Source: a bacterium (lineage in GTDB: Bacteria; Hydrothermota; Tepidihabitantia; B3-TA06). From it: a stretch of DNA of 33,785 nucleotides. The stretch lies in contig JAAYVC010000011.1 in assembly GCA_012517375.1 (NCBI GenBank), positions 1-33,785 of the forward strand, read 5' to 3'. Each line of letters opens with the position of its first letter. Positions within the stretch are counted from its first letter, which is position 1. The notes below the pieces were generated by a model. That model had not been told where the DNA came from, ran no database searches, and worked only from the letters and a program-made list of their open reading frames with translations. The position numbers and the translations under genes were made by a program. Shown here one piece after another: positions 26,351 to 33,528 of the stretch.

Positions 26351-28291
26351 TTATTCCTCAAGAAGGCCTTCGAGCTGTTCCTGAAGCCTTTCGAGTTCAA
26401 GCCTCAGGGCCCGGTGCCTGGACGTAACCTCTACCAGCCTGTTCTTATCGGAGTAAAGCTTTTGCTCGCTCATCTCCTTTTCGAGATTCTTTATCTCCTT
26501 CTCTCTTGATTCAATCTCGGCAAACGTGCGATTTACCTCCTCCTCACGCATCCTTGCTTCCTTTGCCCTTGTTTTCTTATCGAGGGATTCCCTGGGCTCA
26601 GGCAGTTTCTTTCCTGATTCCTTTTTTGGCTCCTTAGACGCCTTCTTTACGGGTTGCGGCGACGGTGTTCTTGCGGAGGAGGCCTTTTCGTTCTCTCTCC
26701 AGTGCTCGAACTCGGTCCAGTTCCCGAGATGGAGTCTTGCCCTGCCCTGACCTATCTCGACGACCTTGTTTGCGATGCGGTCGATGAGAAAGCGGTCGTG
26801 CGAGGAGAAAACTACCGTTCCGGGGTACTGGCGCACAGCATCCTCTAGCACGTCGCGCGAGGCAAGATCGAGATGGTTGGTGGGCTCGTCCAGCAGGAGG
26901 AGGTTGGACGGCGAGAGAAGGATGCGCGCGAGGGCGAGCCGTGACTTTTCGCCGCCGGAGAGCACGGCCACCTTCTTTTCCGTATCGTCTCCCGAGAAGA
27001 GGAACGCGCCTGCAAGACCCCGCAGAACCGGCGTTGTTTCCCAAGGCGCTGCGTCCTCGAGCTCCTCAAGCACCGTTTTTGAGGGATCAAGCCGCTCCTC
27101 CACTATCTGGGTGTAGAAGGCTGACTGAAGCTTTGAGGAGCGCCAGACCTCTCCCGAAGAAGCGTCGAGTTCGCCCGCGATTATTCGCAAAAGCGTGGTC
27201 TTTCCCTCGCCGTTCGCGCCCACGAGTGCGATACGGTCCCCGGGTTCCACAGCAAGATTGACGTCTGCGAACACCTCGTGTTCGCCGAATCTCTTTGACA
27301 CTCCTTCGAGAGCCATCACCCTTCCTGAGATTTTTTCCGACTGAGGGAAGCGGATGGATATAGTCTTCTGGTTTCCGGGCAGCTCCTCTACATCAGGAAG
27401 ACGCTCAAGCATCTTCTTGCGGCTGCGAACGAGCGCGGCCTTCTTTGGATAACCCCTGAACTTGTCGATAAAGCGTTGAAGGTGTTCGCGGGTTTCGGAG
27501 ACCTTCTCGCGCTGGCGTTCGACCTGCTCGCGGTAAAACTCCTTCTGTCCCGTGAATGCCGAGTAGTTCCCTTTGTAGGAGGTTATCCTGCGGTTGAAGA
27601 CGTCCCATATGTTGTCGACGACGCGGTCGAGAAAGAAACGGTCGTGAGAGCTTATAACGAGAGCGCCCCGAAAACCCTTGATGAACTCCTCCAGCCACTC
27701 TATTGACGGCAGATCGAGGTGATTGGTTGGCTCGTCGAGCAAGAGCAGGTCGGGCTCTTCCAAAAGCATCCGCGCAAGGGCGATGCGCATCTGGTAGCCG
27801 CCGGAGAACTCGCGGCATGGACGGTTGAAGTCATTCTTGTGGAATCCGAGTCCTTCGAGTATCTCTTCGGTGCGGGATTCGAATGTGTAGCCGTCCTGCG
27901 CGTACTCTTCCTGCAGACGGCTGTAGCGCGAAAGAATCTTTTCAAGCTCCCTTGGCGCAAGCGATGTATCCTGCATCTTAGCCTCGAGTTCGTGCATCGC
28001 AAGCCTGATTTCATGTATGTGATCGAATGCCTTGACGGCCTCGTCGAATACGCTCTCAGAACCGAGTACGACCTCCTCCTGAGGCAAGTATCCGATTCTC
28101 AGGTTTTTGGGCATCTCTATAGAGCCTTCGTCCGGGGAACGCTCGCCTACGAGAAGCCGGAACAAAGTGGTCTTTCCTGTACCGTTTGCTCCGACAAGAC
28201 CTATGCGTGCGCGTTCCCCTATGACGAGGTTGGCCTCGGAGAATAACGCCCGCGCCCCGAACCAGACGCCTGCATCCTTTAAAAGTATCAT
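26351..28291 (-). CDS. ABC-F family ATPase
   Basis: The start at 28291 (MILLKDAGVWFG) is chosen because AGAGGA lies upstream; the 17-codon extension to 28342 overlaps the permease gene. The 646-residue protein has two ABC domains and no membrane segment: Walker A at 34-41 (GANGTGKT) and 358-365 (GANGEGKT), signatures FSGGYQ (162-167) and LSGGEK (444-449), and LLLLDEPTNHLDL in both halves. The linker at about 240-305 is rich in basic residues, as in ABC-F proteins that reach the ribosomal P-site tRNA. A Lys-rich region and coiled coil (about 540-646) resemble Uup. ABC-F members act in translation or ribosome protection. Position after an ABC-2 exporter suggests a link to a drug or peptide response, which is inference. 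Confidence 0.93.
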   Translation of the reverse strand: MILLKDAGVWFGARALFSEANLVIGERARIGLVGANGTGKTTLFRLLVGERSPDEGSIEMPKNLRIGYLPQEEVVLGSESVFDEAVKAFDHIHEIRLAMHELEAKMQDTSLAPRELEKILSRYSRLQEEYAQDGYTFESRTEEILEGLGFHKNDFNRPCREFSGGYQMRIALARMLLEEPDLLLLDEPTNHLDLPSIEWLEEFIKGFRGALVISSHDRFFLDRVVDNIWDVFNRRITSYKGNYSAFTGQKEFYREQVERQREKVSETREHLQRFIDKFRGYPKKAALVRSRKKMLERLPDVEELPGNQKTISIRFPQSEKISGRVMALEGVSKRFGEHEVFADVNLAVEPGDRIALVGANGEGKTTLLRIIAGELDASSGEVWRSSKLQSAFYTQIVEERLDPSKTVLEELEDAAPWETTPVLRGLAGAFLFSGDDTEKKVAVLSGGEKSRLALARILLSPSNLLLLDEPTNHLDLASRDVLEDAVRQYPGTVVFSSHDRFLIDRIANKVVEIGQGRARLHLGNWTEFEHWRENEKASSARTPSPQPVKKASKEPKKESGKKLPEPRESLDKKTRAKEARMREEEVNRTFAEIESREKEIKNLEKEMSEQKLYSDKNRLVEVTSRHRALRLELERLQEQLEGLLEE

Positions 28292-28302
28292 GCGTTTTTC
28301 CT

Positions 28303-29163
28303 CTATCCGTTTCTTGCGAGCTTGCCTTTTCGCTTGGCCCATCTCTCGGCGGTGTTGAAGATTAAAAAGCCGAGAGGGATCAGTACGGCTCCTATACCGG
28401 CCAGAAGACCGATTGCGGGGCCGAGTTCCCTGAAGGAGGCTCCTTCAAGAAGCGCCGCTCTAATCGCCTTCAGCGTGTATGTTGCGGGCGATATGACCGA
28501 GAGCGGCTGAAGCCAGCGCGGCAGCACATCAACCTCGTAGTATACTCCGGATACGAGAAGTATCAAAGCCTGGAATATGTGCGAGGCCTGCGCGCCGCGT
28601 TCGGTCGATAGCAGAGGAAGGATTGCGGCGATGAGTCCCATGCCGATGAACGAGAGGCCGGATACGAGGAGCACGACGAGAGCTCCGAGTATGTTGGCGT
28701 TCTTGAGCGATAGTCCGAGAAAGAGTACGATTGCTCCGAGAAGAAGCACGGAGCGCAGGACACCATAGACTACGGCATAGAAGCAGTTTCCGAGGAGGTA
28801 TGTGAGCCGGTGCATGGGCGCCATGAAGCTGTACTCGATTGTACCTTCCCAGCGCTCCCACTGAACCTGTTCGGCAAGCTCGTGGAACAGAAGGGACAGG
28901 AAACCCCATATGAGGGCGCCTATCACGAGATACATCACGTACTCCTTGCCCATCTTTACGCCGATGAAGCCGATGCATAGCGAGTTGACGATGGAGTAGA
29001 ACACGAATACCGTCTCCCACGCTATGTAGCGCTTGATGAGCATGAAGTTGCGCTCAATCATCGCAAGGAACCGCAGCCTCATGCGCGGGGTTGACCCGCG
29101 GGGCACCATCGGCTCGAAGGTGCCGGGAGGGGACGCGGACGTTTGGAATATGGATTGTTTCAT
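28303..29163 (-). CDS. ABC-2 type transporter permease
   Basis: The 286-residue protein has a cytoplasmic N-terminus of about 45 residues and six predicted membrane helices (for example YVMYLVIGALIWGFLSLLF and YLLGNCFYAVVYGVLRSVLL). The ABC-2 landmark LPRWLQPLSVISPATYTLKAIR precedes the last helices. It is the membrane subunit for the ATPase encoded two genes upstream. Substrates of this family include drugs, polysaccharides and peptides; the sequence does not tell which. AAGGAG lies six bases before the ATG within a segment (GAAAGGAGAAAAA) that is repeated before the 78-residue gene. It is followed after 11 bp by the ABC-F gene. Confidence 0.9.
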   Translation of the reverse strand: MKQSIFQTSASPPGTFEPMVPRGSTPRMRLRFLAMIERNFMLIKRYIAWETVFVFYSIVNSLCIGFIGVKMGKEYVMYLVIGALIWGFLSLLFHELAEQVQWERWEGTIEYSFMAPMHRLTYLLGNCFYAVVYGVLRSVLLLGAIVLFLGLSLKNANILGALVVLLVSGLSFIGMGLIAAILPLLSTERGAQASHIFQALILLVSGVYYEVDVLPRWLQPLSVISPATYTLKAIRAALLEGASFRELGPAIGLLAGIGAVLIPLGFLIFNTAERWAKRKGKLARNG

Positions 29164-29483: not shown

Positions 29484-30302
29484 TTATTTTTTCTCCTCTT
29501 CGATGTCATCGTCGCTGTCTTCGACCCACTCCTTGTGGGTGAGTTCAAGGAAGACGTCCTCAAGGGTCGCGTGGTTGGAGCCTCTGCGAACAGAGACTAT
29601 CTCCTTAAGACCTGCCGGAGTGTCGAGCGCCACGATTCGTCCCTTGTCTATGATAGCGACTCTATCGCACAGGGCTTCAGCCTCGGCCATGTCGTGCGTG
29701 GTCAGGAAGATCGTCAAGTCCGTCTCTTTTCTTAGCTTCTGTACGTACGACTCAACCTCGCGCTTCGAACGAGGATCAAGGCCTGTCGTCGGCTCGTCCA
29801 GAAGAAGCACCCGCGGACGGTTTATTAGCGCTCGAGCAACAGCTACCTTCTGCTGCATCCCGCGGGATAAATCCTCCATCGGATCCGTGAAACGCTTCTC
29901 AGGGAACCCCATCTCGCTCAAGGCTTCAAGCGCCCGTTCCTTCGCCAGCTTGACGGGCACCCCGTAGAGCCTTGCCGAGTACCTAAGGTTCTCCCATGCC
30001 GAGAGCTTCTTGAAGAACGCGGCGTCCACAGACACCCGGCTAATGAGCTCGCGCACGGGGTAGGGCTTTGCGACCACGTCTAAGCCGCATACGAGCGCCT
30101 CTCCCTTGTCAGGATAGAGAAGGGTCGAGAGTATGCGAATGAGGGTCGACTTGCCTGACCCGTTCGGACCTATGAGTCCGAAACACTCGCCGGGACGTAT
30201 GTCGAAGTTGATATCGATAAGGGCCGTTACCGGTTTCTTCCTTTTTATTATGCCGTCCACGTAGGTCTTTGAGATCCTCTGACAGCTTATTATCGGTTGC
30301 AA
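29484..30302 (-). CDS. ABC transporter ATP-binding protein (ABC-2 system)
   Basis: The start is set at TTG (30302), five bases after GGAGG; the open frame upstream to 30401 runs through hairpins of the leader. The 272-residue protein has Walker A GPNGSGKS (45-52), signature LSRGMQ (145-150), Walker B LLLDEP (166-171) and the switch His in TTHDM (H203). The C-terminus has the ABC-2 partner motif RRGSNHATLEDVFLELT followed by an acidic tail. It powers the permease at 28303-29163. Expression is probably controlled by the structured leader at 30303-30642. Confidence 0.93.
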   Translation of the reverse strand: MQPIISCQRISKTYVDGIIKRKKPVTALIDINFDIRPGECFGLIGPNGSGKSTLIRILSTLLYPDKGEALVCGLDVVAKPYPVRELISRVSVDAAFFKKLSAWENLRYSARLYGVPVKLAKERALEALSEMGFPEKRFTDPMEDLSRGMQQKVAVARALINRPRVLLLDEPTTGLDPRSKREVESYVQKLRKETDLTIFLTTHDMAEAEALCDRVAIIDKGRIVALDTPAGLKEIVSVRRGSNHATLEDVFLELTHKEWVEDSDDDIEEEKK

Positions 30303-30433
30303 GTGCACCTCCGAATATCGAATGAAGGCTACTTTGACCTTTTCATTCAGGTTAAGTTGTTTTCCGAGCGCGCCGAGCACAAATCGTCGCGCTCGCCTCA
30401 AGTACCGCTCTGGCGAGACTTGAGGCTTAAAGC

Positions 30434-30460
30434 AAAAACCCCGGATTTCCCGGGGTTTTT
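30434..30460 (-). terminator. Terminator hairpin in the ABC operon leader (H2)
   Basis: An 11-bp stem AAAAACCCCGG / CCGGGGTTTTT with a five-base loop. The T5 run closes the 3' arm on either strand, so it may act in both directions. It lies 132 bp before the ATPase start. Confidence 0.7.
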
Positions 30461-30476
30461 GCGGTGTTATAAAGAG

Positions 30477-30502
30477 AACCCCGGGCTTGGATGCCCGGGG
30501 TT
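30477..30502 (-). other. Hairpin H1, possible anti-antiterminator
   Basis: A perfect 10-bp stem AACCCCGGGC / GCCCGGGGTT with a six-base loop and no T run after it. Its arms share the eight-base core AACCCCGG / CCGGGGTT with terminator H2, so the two can exchange partners. Confidence 0.55.
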
Positions 30503-30529
30503 AAATTCTACAGATCTTGTAGGATTAGA

Positions 30530-30613
30530 CTACGGGCACCCGATGGATACCTCAAGAGTAAACACGATTGCGGGAATCGTGCCCCATTGGTTGCAGTCTA
30601 ATTTAAAGATCAT
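30530..30613 (-). CDS. 27-residue ORF in the ABC operon leader
   Basis: ATG at 30613 follows TGGAGG (30621-30626) by seven bases. The peptide begins MIFKLDCNQWGTIPAIVF and ends VSIGCP before TAG; it has two cysteines (positions 7 and 26), one Trp and a hydrophobic middle. It has its own consensus promoter and is followed by hairpins H1 and H2, so it is a complete transcription unit as well as a leader. Roles that fit are a leader peptide sensing ribosome stalling, a small precursor or signal peptide for the ABC exporter, or a chance ORF within a structured RNA. Codons 4-6 pair with the stop codon region in helix P1. Confidence 0.5.
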   Translation of the reverse strand: MIFKLDCNQWGTIPAIVFTLEVSIGCP

Positions 30614-30648
30614 TTTTTATCCTCCAAAAGTAAAAATTCCAACAATCA

Positions 30649-30676
30649 ATTATACAGATTTTGAAACGCTTGTCAA
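30649..30676 (-). promoter_or_regulatory. Consensus promoter of the ABC operon leader
   Basis: On the minus strand a perfect TTGACA (30671-30676), 16-bp spacer and perfect TATAAT (30649-30654). The transcript should begin near 30642. It is as good as the hup promoter. Confidence 0.88.
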
Positions 30677-30774
30677 GCCCTTAAATCACAATTTATAGGC
30701 ATTAATGCGTTATGTCTCTGACTATAGTCAGGTTTTGTTGAGCGTTTGTCCACGTTGGATAACGGCAAAGATAC

Positions 30775-30802
30775 TTGACATTTTTTAAAAATGGAGCATA
30801 GT
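30775..30802 (+). promoter_or_regulatory. Promoter for the 30845-31648 gene
   Basis: TTGACA (30775-30780), 16-bp spacer and CATAGT (30797-30802). An in-frame ATG at 30791 lies inside this promoter, which supports the later start at 30845. Confidence 0.6.
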
Positions 30803-30844
30803 AAGTGCAGATTAGAAAATTTTACGATTATTTATGGAGGACGC

Positions 30845-31648
30845 ATGAAATTTTTACTAGTCTTTCTTTCACTTGCCGCATCCGTTTTCGGACAATACAG
30901 AATGGGAAAGCCTGACCTTATGATAAAACTGGACGAGGATACCCTTTATCTAGGCGACAACGTTTACAACGACAACGCCAACCGTCAGACGGAGTACGAT
31001 ACTGTTCCGACAACGGTAAAGGCGATTTTCTATATCAGGGTTCAGAACGACGCCGACTACCAGGAGATGAAAGACAACATACTGGTCAAAGGAACCAAGG
31101 AGGACTCAGGCTGGACCGTTAAGTATTTCGACTCCCACATAGGCGGAGCCGATATTACGGTGGACATCACAGGAACCGGCTGGTCAACAGGGCTCCTTTC
31201 CAAGGGTTCTTTCCAGAACATGAGAGCGGAGGTTACCCCTCCAGCGGATGCGCCGCAGGGAAGCGAATTCATTGTGGCGCTGACCGGCAAATCGAATAAC
31301 GAGCCTGACAGGATAGACGTTGTAAAGGCCATAACGACCGTTTCAGGAGTGGCGGTCAAGGAGACAAAAATACCAACCGGACTCTATATTCTGGCAACGA
31401 ACACATCTGCACCTTCGGTTCAGGTTTCCTACGGTATTCCTTCCCAAAGCAATGTAAGCGTTGTAGTTTACGACGTAACCGGCAGTGCGGTAAGAACCCT
31501 TCTTTCAGGCTCCTGCATGGCTGGAACTTACTCGCTCGAGTGGAACGGTAAGAACGAGGAGGCTAAGGACGTTCCGGCAGGCGTGTACTTCGTTAGGCTT
31601 ATCTCGGATTCCGGCTCGGCAACCGCAAGGCTCGTGCTCGTGAGATAG
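30845..31648 (+). CDS. Secreted protein with FlgD-like/T9SS-type C-terminal domain
   Basis: GGAGG lies four bases before the ATG at 30845. The 267-residue product has a signal peptide (MKFLLVFLSLAASVFG) and a beta-rich domain of unknown type to about residue 180, opening with KPDLMIKLDEDTLYLGDNVYN shortened here to its first part KPDLMIKLDEDT. The C-terminal 80 residues are a FlgD-like Ig fold with sorting-tail features: VVVYDVTGSAVRTLLSG, GTYSLEWNGKNEEAKD, GVYFVRLIS and a final RLVLVR. It belongs with the three tailed proteins at 5712-10208 as predicted T9SS-type cargo, but has no thioredoxin domain or CxxC. The middle mentions no catalytic motif. Confidence 0.82.
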   Translation: MKFLLVFLSLAASVFGQYRMGKPDLMIKLDEDTLYLGDNVYNDNANRQTEYDTVPTTVKAIFYIRVQNDADYQEMKDNILVKGTKEDSGWTVKYFDSHIGGADITVDITGTGWSTGLLSKGSFQNMRAEVTPPADAPQGSEFIVALTGKSNNEPDRIDVVKAITTVSGVAVKETKIPTGLYILATNTSAPSVQVSYGIPSQSNVSVVVYDVTGSAVRTLLSGSCMAGTYSLEWNGKNEEAKDVPAGVYFVRLISDSGSATARLVLVR

Positions 31649-32016: not shown

Positions 32017-33528
32017 ATGGGTGACTGGCGCAACCAGCTTTACTTCGGCGACAACCTCGACGTTTTGCGAAACAAGATTTCCGATGAATCCGTTGACCTC
32101 ATTTACCTCGACCCGCCGTTCAACTCGAAGGCCGACTACAACGTGCTGTTCAAGGAGGTTGACGGTACGCCTTCAGCGGCGCAGATTCACGCGTTTACCG
32201 ATTTCTGGCACTGGGACGAGGTTGCGGCGCGCACGTTTCACGAGCTTGTGGAGAGCGGCGATGCGCCGCCCGCCTTGGTTGAGTTGTTGCAGGGTTTTGC
32301 GCGGTTCCTTGGTCACAACGACATGCTGGCGTATCTGGTGATGATGGCTCCAAGACTGGTCGAGTTGAGACGTGTCTTAAAGCCGACAGGAAGCATCTAC
32401 CTGCACTGCGACCCCACGGCTGGTCGTTATCTCAATGTCCTTATGGATGCCATCTTTGGAAATAAGAATTTTCGCAACGAAATTATTTGGCATTACAAGA
32501 GATGGCCTGCAAAACAAAAAAATTTCCAGAGGATGCACGATACGCTCCTGTTTTACTCAAAAACTTACAGTCAAAATACTTTCAATATTGTCTTAGAAGA
32601 TTTGTCACCTGGGACATTAAAAAGGTGGCGAGGGAAGAAAAGTAAGGTAGAGTTTGAAGGCGATGTAAGACTTGTCACTAAGATGACTGATGAAGATTCT
32701 CCAGGTCGTCCAGCGGATGATGTATGGGACATACCTGTTGTTAATTCTCAAGCAAGGGAACGACTTGGATACCCGACCCAAAAACCTCAAGAACTACTTG
32801 AACGCATCGTGCAGGCATCCTCCAACGAAGGCGACGTTGTACTTGACCCGTTCTGCGGGTGTGGAACCACAATTGCCGCCGCGCAGGCGCTGGGCCGCCG
32901 CTGGATTGGCATTGACGTTACCTACCTTGCCATAAACCTCATCAAGAACCGGCTCGCCGACCACTTTGCAGACGAAGTGTCCTACGAGGTGCACGGCATA
33001 CCTATGGACTGGGAGTCTGCCCGAGAGCTAGCCCAACGAACTGACATGCCGCGCAAGGAGTTCGAGATTTGGGCGCTCTCGCTCGTCTCCGCCCGACCCA
33101 AGGGTGATCTGACTCGCAAGGGGGGAGGGGATAAGGGCATTGACGGCGTCCGCTACTTTATTGACGGAAAGGAACGCTCGCCCCACGCGGTCATCGTTCA
33201 GGTCAAGAGCGACGCAAAGCCGAAGACCGCCTACGTCCGCGACCTCGTAGGCACAATGGAGCGAGAGAAGGCCGTAATGGGCGCGCTCATCCTGCTCTAC
33301 CCGCCGACCGACCGCTCGGAGATTAAGGCTGAGGCGGCGTCGGCAGGGTTCTTCCACTCGCAGATAATGAACAAGGACTACCCCAGGGTTCAGGCGCTTA
33401 CGGTCGAGGGTTTGCTCAACCGCACCGAGCGGCTCGAACTGCCGCAGGTTGCGCCGGACGACATCACCTTCAAGAAGGCCGAAAAGATTCCCAAGGACAA
33501 GAACAAGCAGAAGACGCTTGACGTTTGA
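32017..33528 (+). CDS. DNA methyltransferase fused to Mrr-like endonuclease domain
   Basis: The 503-residue protein is an amino-methyltransferase (N6-adenine or N4-cytosine) with the catalytic motif first, LDPPFNSK (31-38), and the AdoMet motif later, VLDPFCGCGTT (275-285), the order of the beta class. After about 335 a PD-(D/E)xK-type domain follows: E350, GGGDKGIDG with D376, and VIVQVKSD with Q395-x-K397, close to Mrr_cat domains. A single chain could thus both methylate and cut DNA. No separate endonuclease or specificity gene is near. Residues about 148-228, where the target-recognition region should lie, are encoded by DNA of about 36% GC against 58-68% in flanking parts. The gene is leaderless and lies between repeat clusters, which suggests transfer. 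Confidence 0.85.
   Translation: MGDWRNQLYFGDNLDVLRNKISDESVDLIYLDPPFNSKADYNVLFKEVDGTPSAAQIHAFTDFWHWDEVAARTFHELVESGDAPPALVELLQGFARFLGHNDMLAYLVMMAPRLVELRRVLKPTGSIYLHCDPTAGRYLNVLMDAIFGNKNFRNEIIWHYKRWPAKQKNFQRMHDTLLFYSKTYSQNTFNIVLEDLSPGTLKRWRGKKSKVEFEGDVRLVTKMTDEDSPGRPADDVWDIPVVNSQARERLGYPTQKPQELLERIVQASSNEGDVVLDPFCGCGTTIAAAQALGRRWIGIDVTYLAINLIKNRLADHFADEVSYEVHGIPMDWESARELAQRTDMPRKEFEIWALSLVSARPKGDLTRKGGGDKGIDGVRYFIDGKERSPHAVIVQVKSDAKPKTAYVRDLVGTMEREKAVMGALILLYPPTDRSEIKAEAASAGFFHSQIMNKDYPRVQALTVEGLLNRTERLELPQVAPDDITFKKAEKIPKDKNKQKTLDV

Follow-up and report, generated by a model that had tools for sequence, protein, structure and literature searches.

A putative ribosome-mediated transcription attenuator upstream of a DrrAB-like exporter in uncultivated bacteria

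Leader region and downstream operon

The window (the whole stretch of 33,785 nucleotides analyzed here, part of a 2.54 Mb assembly) carries on its minus strand a promoter, a short open reading frame (ORF) and a series of hairpins, followed by three genes for an ABC-2 type exporter ATPase, an ABC-2 permease and an ABC-F ATPase. From the promoter downstream the features are:

30649..30676, minus strand: sigma-70-type promoter, TTGACA-16-TATAAT, matching the consensus at 12 of 12 positions; TTGACA and the -10 box are kept in relatives
30530..30613, minus strand: leader ORF with ATG start, 27 codons plus TAG, MIFKLDCNQWGTIPAIVFTLEVSIGCP; SD GGAGGA upstream, peptide conserved in 7 leaders
30593..30602, minus strand: 5' arm of helix P1, codons 4-7 of the ORF; partner 30524-30533
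30563..30581, minus strand: hairpin P2 within the ORF, in the MFE and centroid folds
30554..30559, minus strand: codons 19-20 (Thr-Leu; positions -9/-8 before the stop), predicted P-site of a productive stall, from the masking peak and residue class
30535..30551, minus strand: hairpin P3 (putative anti-antiterminator), GGTATCC-ATC-GGGTGCC, from the folds
30533..30541, minus strand: antiterminator strand 1 (AT5), GGGTGCCCG, final three ORF codons, from alignment pairing and shuffle test
30524..30533, minus strand: 3' arm of P1, stop codon and the bases just 3' of it, from the predicted fold and shuffle test
30508..30522, minus strand: small hairpin CTAC-N7-GTAG, apex of the antiterminator, with arms invariant in the aligned leaders
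30489..30497, minus strand: antiterminator strand 2 (AT3), CGGGCATCC, part of the H1 5' arm and loop, from alignment pairing
30471..30502, minus strand: H1, intrinsic terminator, hairpin 30502-30477 and T tract TTCTCTTT, conserved in all 7 type-1 leaders (defined below)
30432..30462, minus strand: H2, second symmetrical GC-rich hairpin with T run, not part of the core; only in G000, G002, G004 and G005
29484..30302, minus strand: ABC-2 type exporter ATPase, DrrA-like (PF00005, 7e-31; best NCBIfam match TIGR01188 drrA, 255 bits)
28303..29163, minus strand: ABC-2 permease (PF01061, 2.5e-17)
26351..28342, minus strand: ABC-F ATPase, ribosomal protection-like (NF000355, 461 bits against a cut-off of 380)

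The consensus promoter at 30676-30649 and the SD-led 27-codon ORF (GGAGGA; ATG frame 30613-30530) of the first-pass annotation are both borne out, and the two GC-rich hairpins that it described as having a common core indeed share CCCCGGG. A scan of 30200-30850 on the minus strand disclosed no promoter-like site besides that at 30676-30649; a promoter downstream of H2, for which the first-pass annotation had allowed, was thus not seen. The 209-base transcript folds at -76.8 kcal/mol versus -53.1 for shuffles (z = -5.8), and the 101-nt core without the terminators at z = -3.9. In the predicted fold of the window leader, P2 and P3 are held together in a three-way junction closed by P1, and the mutual exclusion of P2 and P3 once proposed is therefore not upheld, although the earlier helix names may differ from those used here. 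Rfam, to which the leader had been referred, gives no match in the window at gathering score; the below-gathering matches (DsrA, His_leader, rimP and others) cover only terminator-like hairpins and were rejected.

The 130 bases between the end of H2 (30432) and the ATPase start (30302) contain long hairpins, e.g. GCCTCAAGT..ACTTGAGGC, and other strong hairpins occupy this place in relatives. On the opposite side, a divergent gene with a FlgD-like/secretion-tail domain (30775-30848, plus strand) starts near the leader promoter and has a promoter-like TTGACA-16-CATAGT of its own.

The ATPase starts with TTG at 30302, which aligns with ATG in relatives. Subfamily cut-offs for DrrA and DrrB were missed (TIGR01188, 255 vs 312 bits; TIGR01247, 44 vs 223), and from these profile scores the exporter is classed as DrrAB-like only. 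The ABC-F protein scores far under the OptrA, Msr, Vga and Lsa cut-offs. Its frame and the end of the permease frame have 40 bases in common (28342-28303), which points to translational coupling. The gene order exporter, ABC-F, fibronectin-type III protein and PurD (window 25126-23837 and 26400-25162) is conserved in G001, G002 and G004, the purine gene being odd in the mix. Upstream of the ATPase SD, GATCGGTT can pair with AACCGATC in codons 2-5, possibly a second, translational level of control; this hairpin is found in 5 of the 6 type-1 relatives tested (L002, L003, L004, L005 and L006; p 0.006-0.020), and for the window itself it was rejected (p = 0.275). Elsewhere in the window, 32017-33528 encodes an N6/N4 DNA methylase fused to an Mrr-type endonuclease domain, which may be a restriction system in one protein.

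Related leaders in the class and beyond

The leader was found by BLAST in 5 of 7 same-family genomes and by covariance model in one more, G007, where it lies at a contig end; with the window's own, seven genomes of the family carry what is termed here the type-1 leader. The orthologous exporter ATPase (relatives 77-79% identical) follows as the next gene in 6 of the 7, and in G007 leader and exporter are both present on different contig ends; G006 has neither. The ABC-F gene is retained in operon order in G001, G002 and G004. In the alignment the promoter, the ORF, H1 and TAGTYTAATCCTAC-N6-TGTAGAATTT are conserved across type 1, and the junction residues and the P2 and P3 sequences are not; G001 and G003 lack H2, and none can be seen in G007. 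The peptide follows the pattern M-I-x(5)-N-x-W-G-x(4)-I-G-F-T-L-x(4)-G-C-P-stop, with Asn8, an invariant Trp10, the end GC(P/L)-stop, and IGFTL kept in most members with synonymous changes (G000 has it without its Gly). Third codon positions show an excess of change (p = 0.0024 by column permutation within type 1), a result that is supportive and not strong, as the sequences are related.

ATPase orthologs of 55-62% identity occur in 15 genomes of other families of the window's class, and 14 of these have a leader of different sequence and the same architecture (type 2), composed of a promoter, an ORF ending in variants of QGVKST-stop, and a terminator CGCCGTGGGC..CCCACGGCG. G010, which has the ortholog and belongs to another family, shows a promoter and a hairpin and no leader ORF of either type. 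In many type-2 leaders the first ATG lies 5-8 bases past the -10 box, so that translation would be leaderless. Searching 147 genomes of the phylum with the type-2 covariance model returned 14 exporter leaders, all in the window's class. Four leaders (L025, L029, L037 and L118) contain two overlapping short frames, the first leaderless and about 14 codons long and the second with an internal SD, an arrangement that suggests coupled re-initiation. The type-2 model also matches leaders of small LuxR/GerE-type helix-turn-helix proteins of 74-97 residues in G040, G044 and G058 (L164, L166, L167 and L168, near base 1501); PF00196 is found in 3 of these 4 proteins, one of them above the curated cut-off, and besides the exporter a type-2-like leader may thus control a regulator.

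Among the matches listed in the ATPase profile search, the next nearest ATPases belong to Chloroflexota and a few others. The exporter is present in 52 of 298 sampled genomes of one Chloroflexota class, and 29 loci with enough upstream DNA were compared with 190 opposite-strand pieces as controls. A terminator lies upstream of the exporter at 27 of the 29 loci (9 of the 190 controls), and an SD, an ORF of 12-40 codons and a terminator stand in a row just before the ATPase at 20 of the 29, as against 0 of 190. These Chloroflexota leader peptides often end in CRSAP or GRSAP.

Competing pairings and the predicted stall position

A conserved pairing that had escaped the first-pass annotation links the last codons of the ORF with H1, at its 5' arm and loop: AT5 GGGTGCCCG (30541-30533) pairs with AT3 CGGGCATCC (30497-30489). 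This antiterminator excludes H1, P3 and P1; conversely, P1 and P3 exclude the antiterminator, since P1 crosses it and P3 also draws on AT5. Across the type-1 alignment the two strands pair in 91.7% of cells, compared with at most 62% when they are slid, and no pair is changed on both sides. In type 2 the ORF end GAAGTCCAC pairs in like manner with terminator GTGGGCTTC; 97.4% of cells are paired, sliding the strands gives 51% or less, and three pairs are changed on both sides. The first-pass annotation had held its reading liable to fail should homologous leaders lack a conserved ORF and covariation; the ORF is conserved, and covariation is present in type 2. Compared with dinucleotide shuffles, the duplex reaches p ≤ 0.033 in 4 of 7 type-1 and 14 of 14 type-2 leaders (p = 0.13 in G001 and 0.22 in G003), and the p values combined over 21 leaders, which are not independent, give 5e-20. 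In Chloroflexota the ORF end can also pair with a terminator arm, reaching p ≤ 0.1 in 13 of 22 leaders; this is a lower proportion than the window's class gives, in part because shuffled GC-rich sequences pair well too. L042 shows by eye an 11-base match.

P1 joins the ORF start to the bases just past the stop in 7 of 7 type-1 leaders, in three registers (p 0.001-0.014 each; Fisher 7e-12). As a helix in a single fixed register it had to be given up, for only 62% of cells are then paired; it is conserved only when a register shift is allowed. Judged against shuffles, neither the antiterminator nor the P1 pairing is a matter of chance. P3 is a local hairpin present at the same place in all leaders and only modestly better than shuffles. 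The exchange of the H1 3' arm for pairing with the H2 5' arm, proposed earlier as the switch, can take place on paper, but only because CCCGGG is self-complementary; with H2 absent in several relatives it is not conserved as a switch and was discarded.

At equilibrium with no ribosome, the antiterminator beats P1, P2 and P3 in most type-1 leaders, so that an off state would need either kinetic trapping in P1/P2/P3 or active translation covering AT5. The estimated barrier is 14.6 kcal/mol in G000, only about 5 in G001, and below that of G000 in several others.

To represent the ribosome, leaders were folded up to the H1 loop with a footprint of -13 to +14 around the P-site codon masked, codon by codon. 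With the P site within about six codons of the stop, the antiterminator is impossible. In type 2 it is predicted to form best with the P site at -9/-8 (mean 0.78 and 0.84), following a dip, and in type 1 the same two positions are open as well (0.83 and 0.85). Exactly these codons are constrained in residue class: -9 is T/S/P/A and -8 is L/I/V/F, each in 19 of 21 leaders of both types, counts that are not independent because the leaders are related. The second base of both codons is nearly fixed (1.55 and 1.45 bits), the first carries 0.16 and 0.26 bits, and the third varies. That the RNA calculation and the peptide pattern converge here is the best hint of a role for the nascent chain.

For a ribosome with codon -8 in its P site, A, S, T or P is the penultimate residue. 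Chloramphenicol and linezolid stall ribosomes above all after A and to a lesser degree after S or T, proline not being listed (PMC8987054). Since the penultimate residues resemble this drug stall preference, a phenicol- or oxazolidinone-like inducer is suggested by analogy, as a lead and not a result; proline lies outside the stall list and the ABC-F protein far under the OptrA cut-off. That the inducer is a peptidyl-transferase drug is a guess. TnaC carries Trp and then Pro-stop; the likeness was dropped because AT5 would be covered by a ribosome halted at the stop.

Proposed mechanism, alternatives and known systems

The element is very probably a ribosome-mediated transcription attenuator of the DrrAB-like exporter and, in the window's family, also of an ABC-F gene. 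This confidence attaches to ribosome-dependent attenuation as such, within which a version with a specific stall is about twice as likely as a general translation sensor. By default, P1, P2 and P3 would form, followed by H1, and transcription would stop before the exporter genes; a ribosome completing the ORF would cover AT5, leaving H1 free to form as well. A ribosome stalled around codons 19-20 (FTL of IGFTL) would instead cover the P3 5' arm, keep P1 open and leave AT5 free to pair with AT3 before the H1 3' arm is made. H1 could then not form, and polymerase would read on through ATPase, permease and ABC-F. Sequence comparison shows the ORF, the antiterminator, P1, H1 and the linkage to the exporter to be conserved, and the stall positions that permit the antiterminator are computed from modeled folds. 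We infer that stalling occurs, that a ribosome-targeting compound which the operon exports or counters brings it about, and that specificity lies in the sequence of the peptide. The first-pass annotation had proposed stall-controlled termination; a ribosome on the leader ORF choosing between termination and readthrough is well supported, owing to the conserved peptide, the anti-antiterminator/antiterminator/terminator set and the exporter synteny, and antibiotic-induced stalling is the part that would go beyond the comparison.

The general sensor would work with no specific stall peptide: any failure to reach the ORF end (blocked initiation, slow elongation or starvation) would free AT5 and open the operon, and efficient translation would lead to termination. 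Transcripts cut at the H1 loop form the antiterminator with no ribosome in most type-1 leaders (mean 0.78) and lose it only with a ribosome within about 6 codons of the stop, and bmrB readthrough follows translation efficiency and codon usage (PMC4191407). However, P1, conserved at shifted registers, would then have no use, and type 2 has a specific -9/-8 window with the residue class conserved exactly there; this reading is possible but on the whole unlikely.

Much less probable is a ligand-binding RNA of a new riboswitch class, the other option raised by the first-pass annotation, in which P1-P2-P3 would be the aptamer and the open frame incidental. The compact three-way junction (z -3.9) and the conserved pairing of P1 are what such an RNA would show; yet the frame is conserved as a protein, keeping its peptide despite third-base changes, and the junction residues and P2/P3 sequences vary. 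Sister leaders before the same exporter, moreover, differ completely in sequence and keep the same ORF, antiterminator and terminator logic, and Rfam offers nothing at gathering score and only weak terminator-type matches below it. Equally improbable is an amino-acid attenuator of the trp/his kind, with the ribosome stalling on scarcity of one amino acid: its architecture is alike in form and Trp10 is invariant in type 1, but there is no run of regulatory codons, the -9/-8 residues form a class and not one amino acid, and the operon encodes an exporter and ABC-F rather than biosynthesis. A small RNA gene in its own right, ending at H1/H2 while transcription of the exporter begins elsewhere, would account for the strong promoter and the two consecutive terminator-like hairpins, but the constant exporter linkage, the conserved antiterminator and the lack of a second promoter-like site on the minus strand make it the least credible of all.

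Ribosome-mediated attenuation has close counterparts in Bacillus subtilis. Common to bmrB-bmrCD and the present element are a translated short ORF, a terminator/antiterminator/anti-antiterminator set, a downstream ABC multidrug exporter and ribosome-driven attenuation (PMC4191407). The bmrB ORF has 53 codons with the terminator inside it, as against 27 codons in the window, and the likeness drawn is one of architecture; bmrB induction is experimental (PMC4191407), whereas the window leader is known from sequence alone. In vmlR (PMC9226507) a uORF stall likewise prevents the anti-antiterminator, an apex-hairpin antiterminator blocks the terminator, and the operon contains an ABC-F gene; its gene-start hairpin has a counterpart in 5 of 6 relatives and not in the window. 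The vmlR uORF is of three codons (MIN) and senses initiation inhibitors (PMC9226507), in contrast to the 27 codons, conserved internal motif and exporter-first gene order found here. The msrD leader, in the part of its description consulted, is alike in uORF-dependent ABC-F induction by stalling that counters termination, a likeness by description, and there the macrolide specificity is known (PMC10314930). Like bmrB and vmlR, the present leaders have a conserved short ORF, complete with start signals, lying between the promoter and the terminator, an intrinsic terminator (H1) before the first structural gene in all leaders, and an antiterminator exclusive with it; as anti-antiterminator, P1 is supported by the shuffle test, and P3 is present and weak against shuffles. 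The leaders differ from bmrB and vmlR in length, host and gene order, with the same logic and no Rfam match. A survey of premature terminators, in the portions seen, lists many candidate attenuators (ABC-leaders) before ABC transporter operons (PMC2965389). Chloroflexota do not occur in its main text, and in those portions no mention was found of the present exporter family, nor are ABC-leaders tied to leader peptides (PMC2965389).

More tentatively, and with rather less than even confidence, the leaders may represent a widespread, undescribed family of drug-responsive leader peptides that goes with a single clade of exporters, in two phyla or more. The stall motif of this family, set by the nascent chain, would be [IL]-[G/D/A]-F-[T/S/P/A]-[L/I/V/F] followed by 7 residues to the stop; in one class the ORF would be apparently leaderless (beginning no more than a few bases from the 5' end) and would also control small LuxR-type regulators, pointing to a regulon for translation-inhibitor stress in uncultivated bacteria. 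Two unlike leader types with a shared stall window, together with the spread over two phyla, are the part that could prove more than a known kind.

Most of what is known about leader-peptide control of resistance genes comes from Bacillus, Streptococcus and other cultured hosts. In the present case comparison alone suggests that such control would be the norm for a single exporter clade in uncultivated lineages and that its stall site is predictable from the RNA, and it gives a testable sensor motif with a set of about 40 natural leader variants. The leaders may thus offer a way to learn which ribosome inhibitors these bacteria meet in nature.
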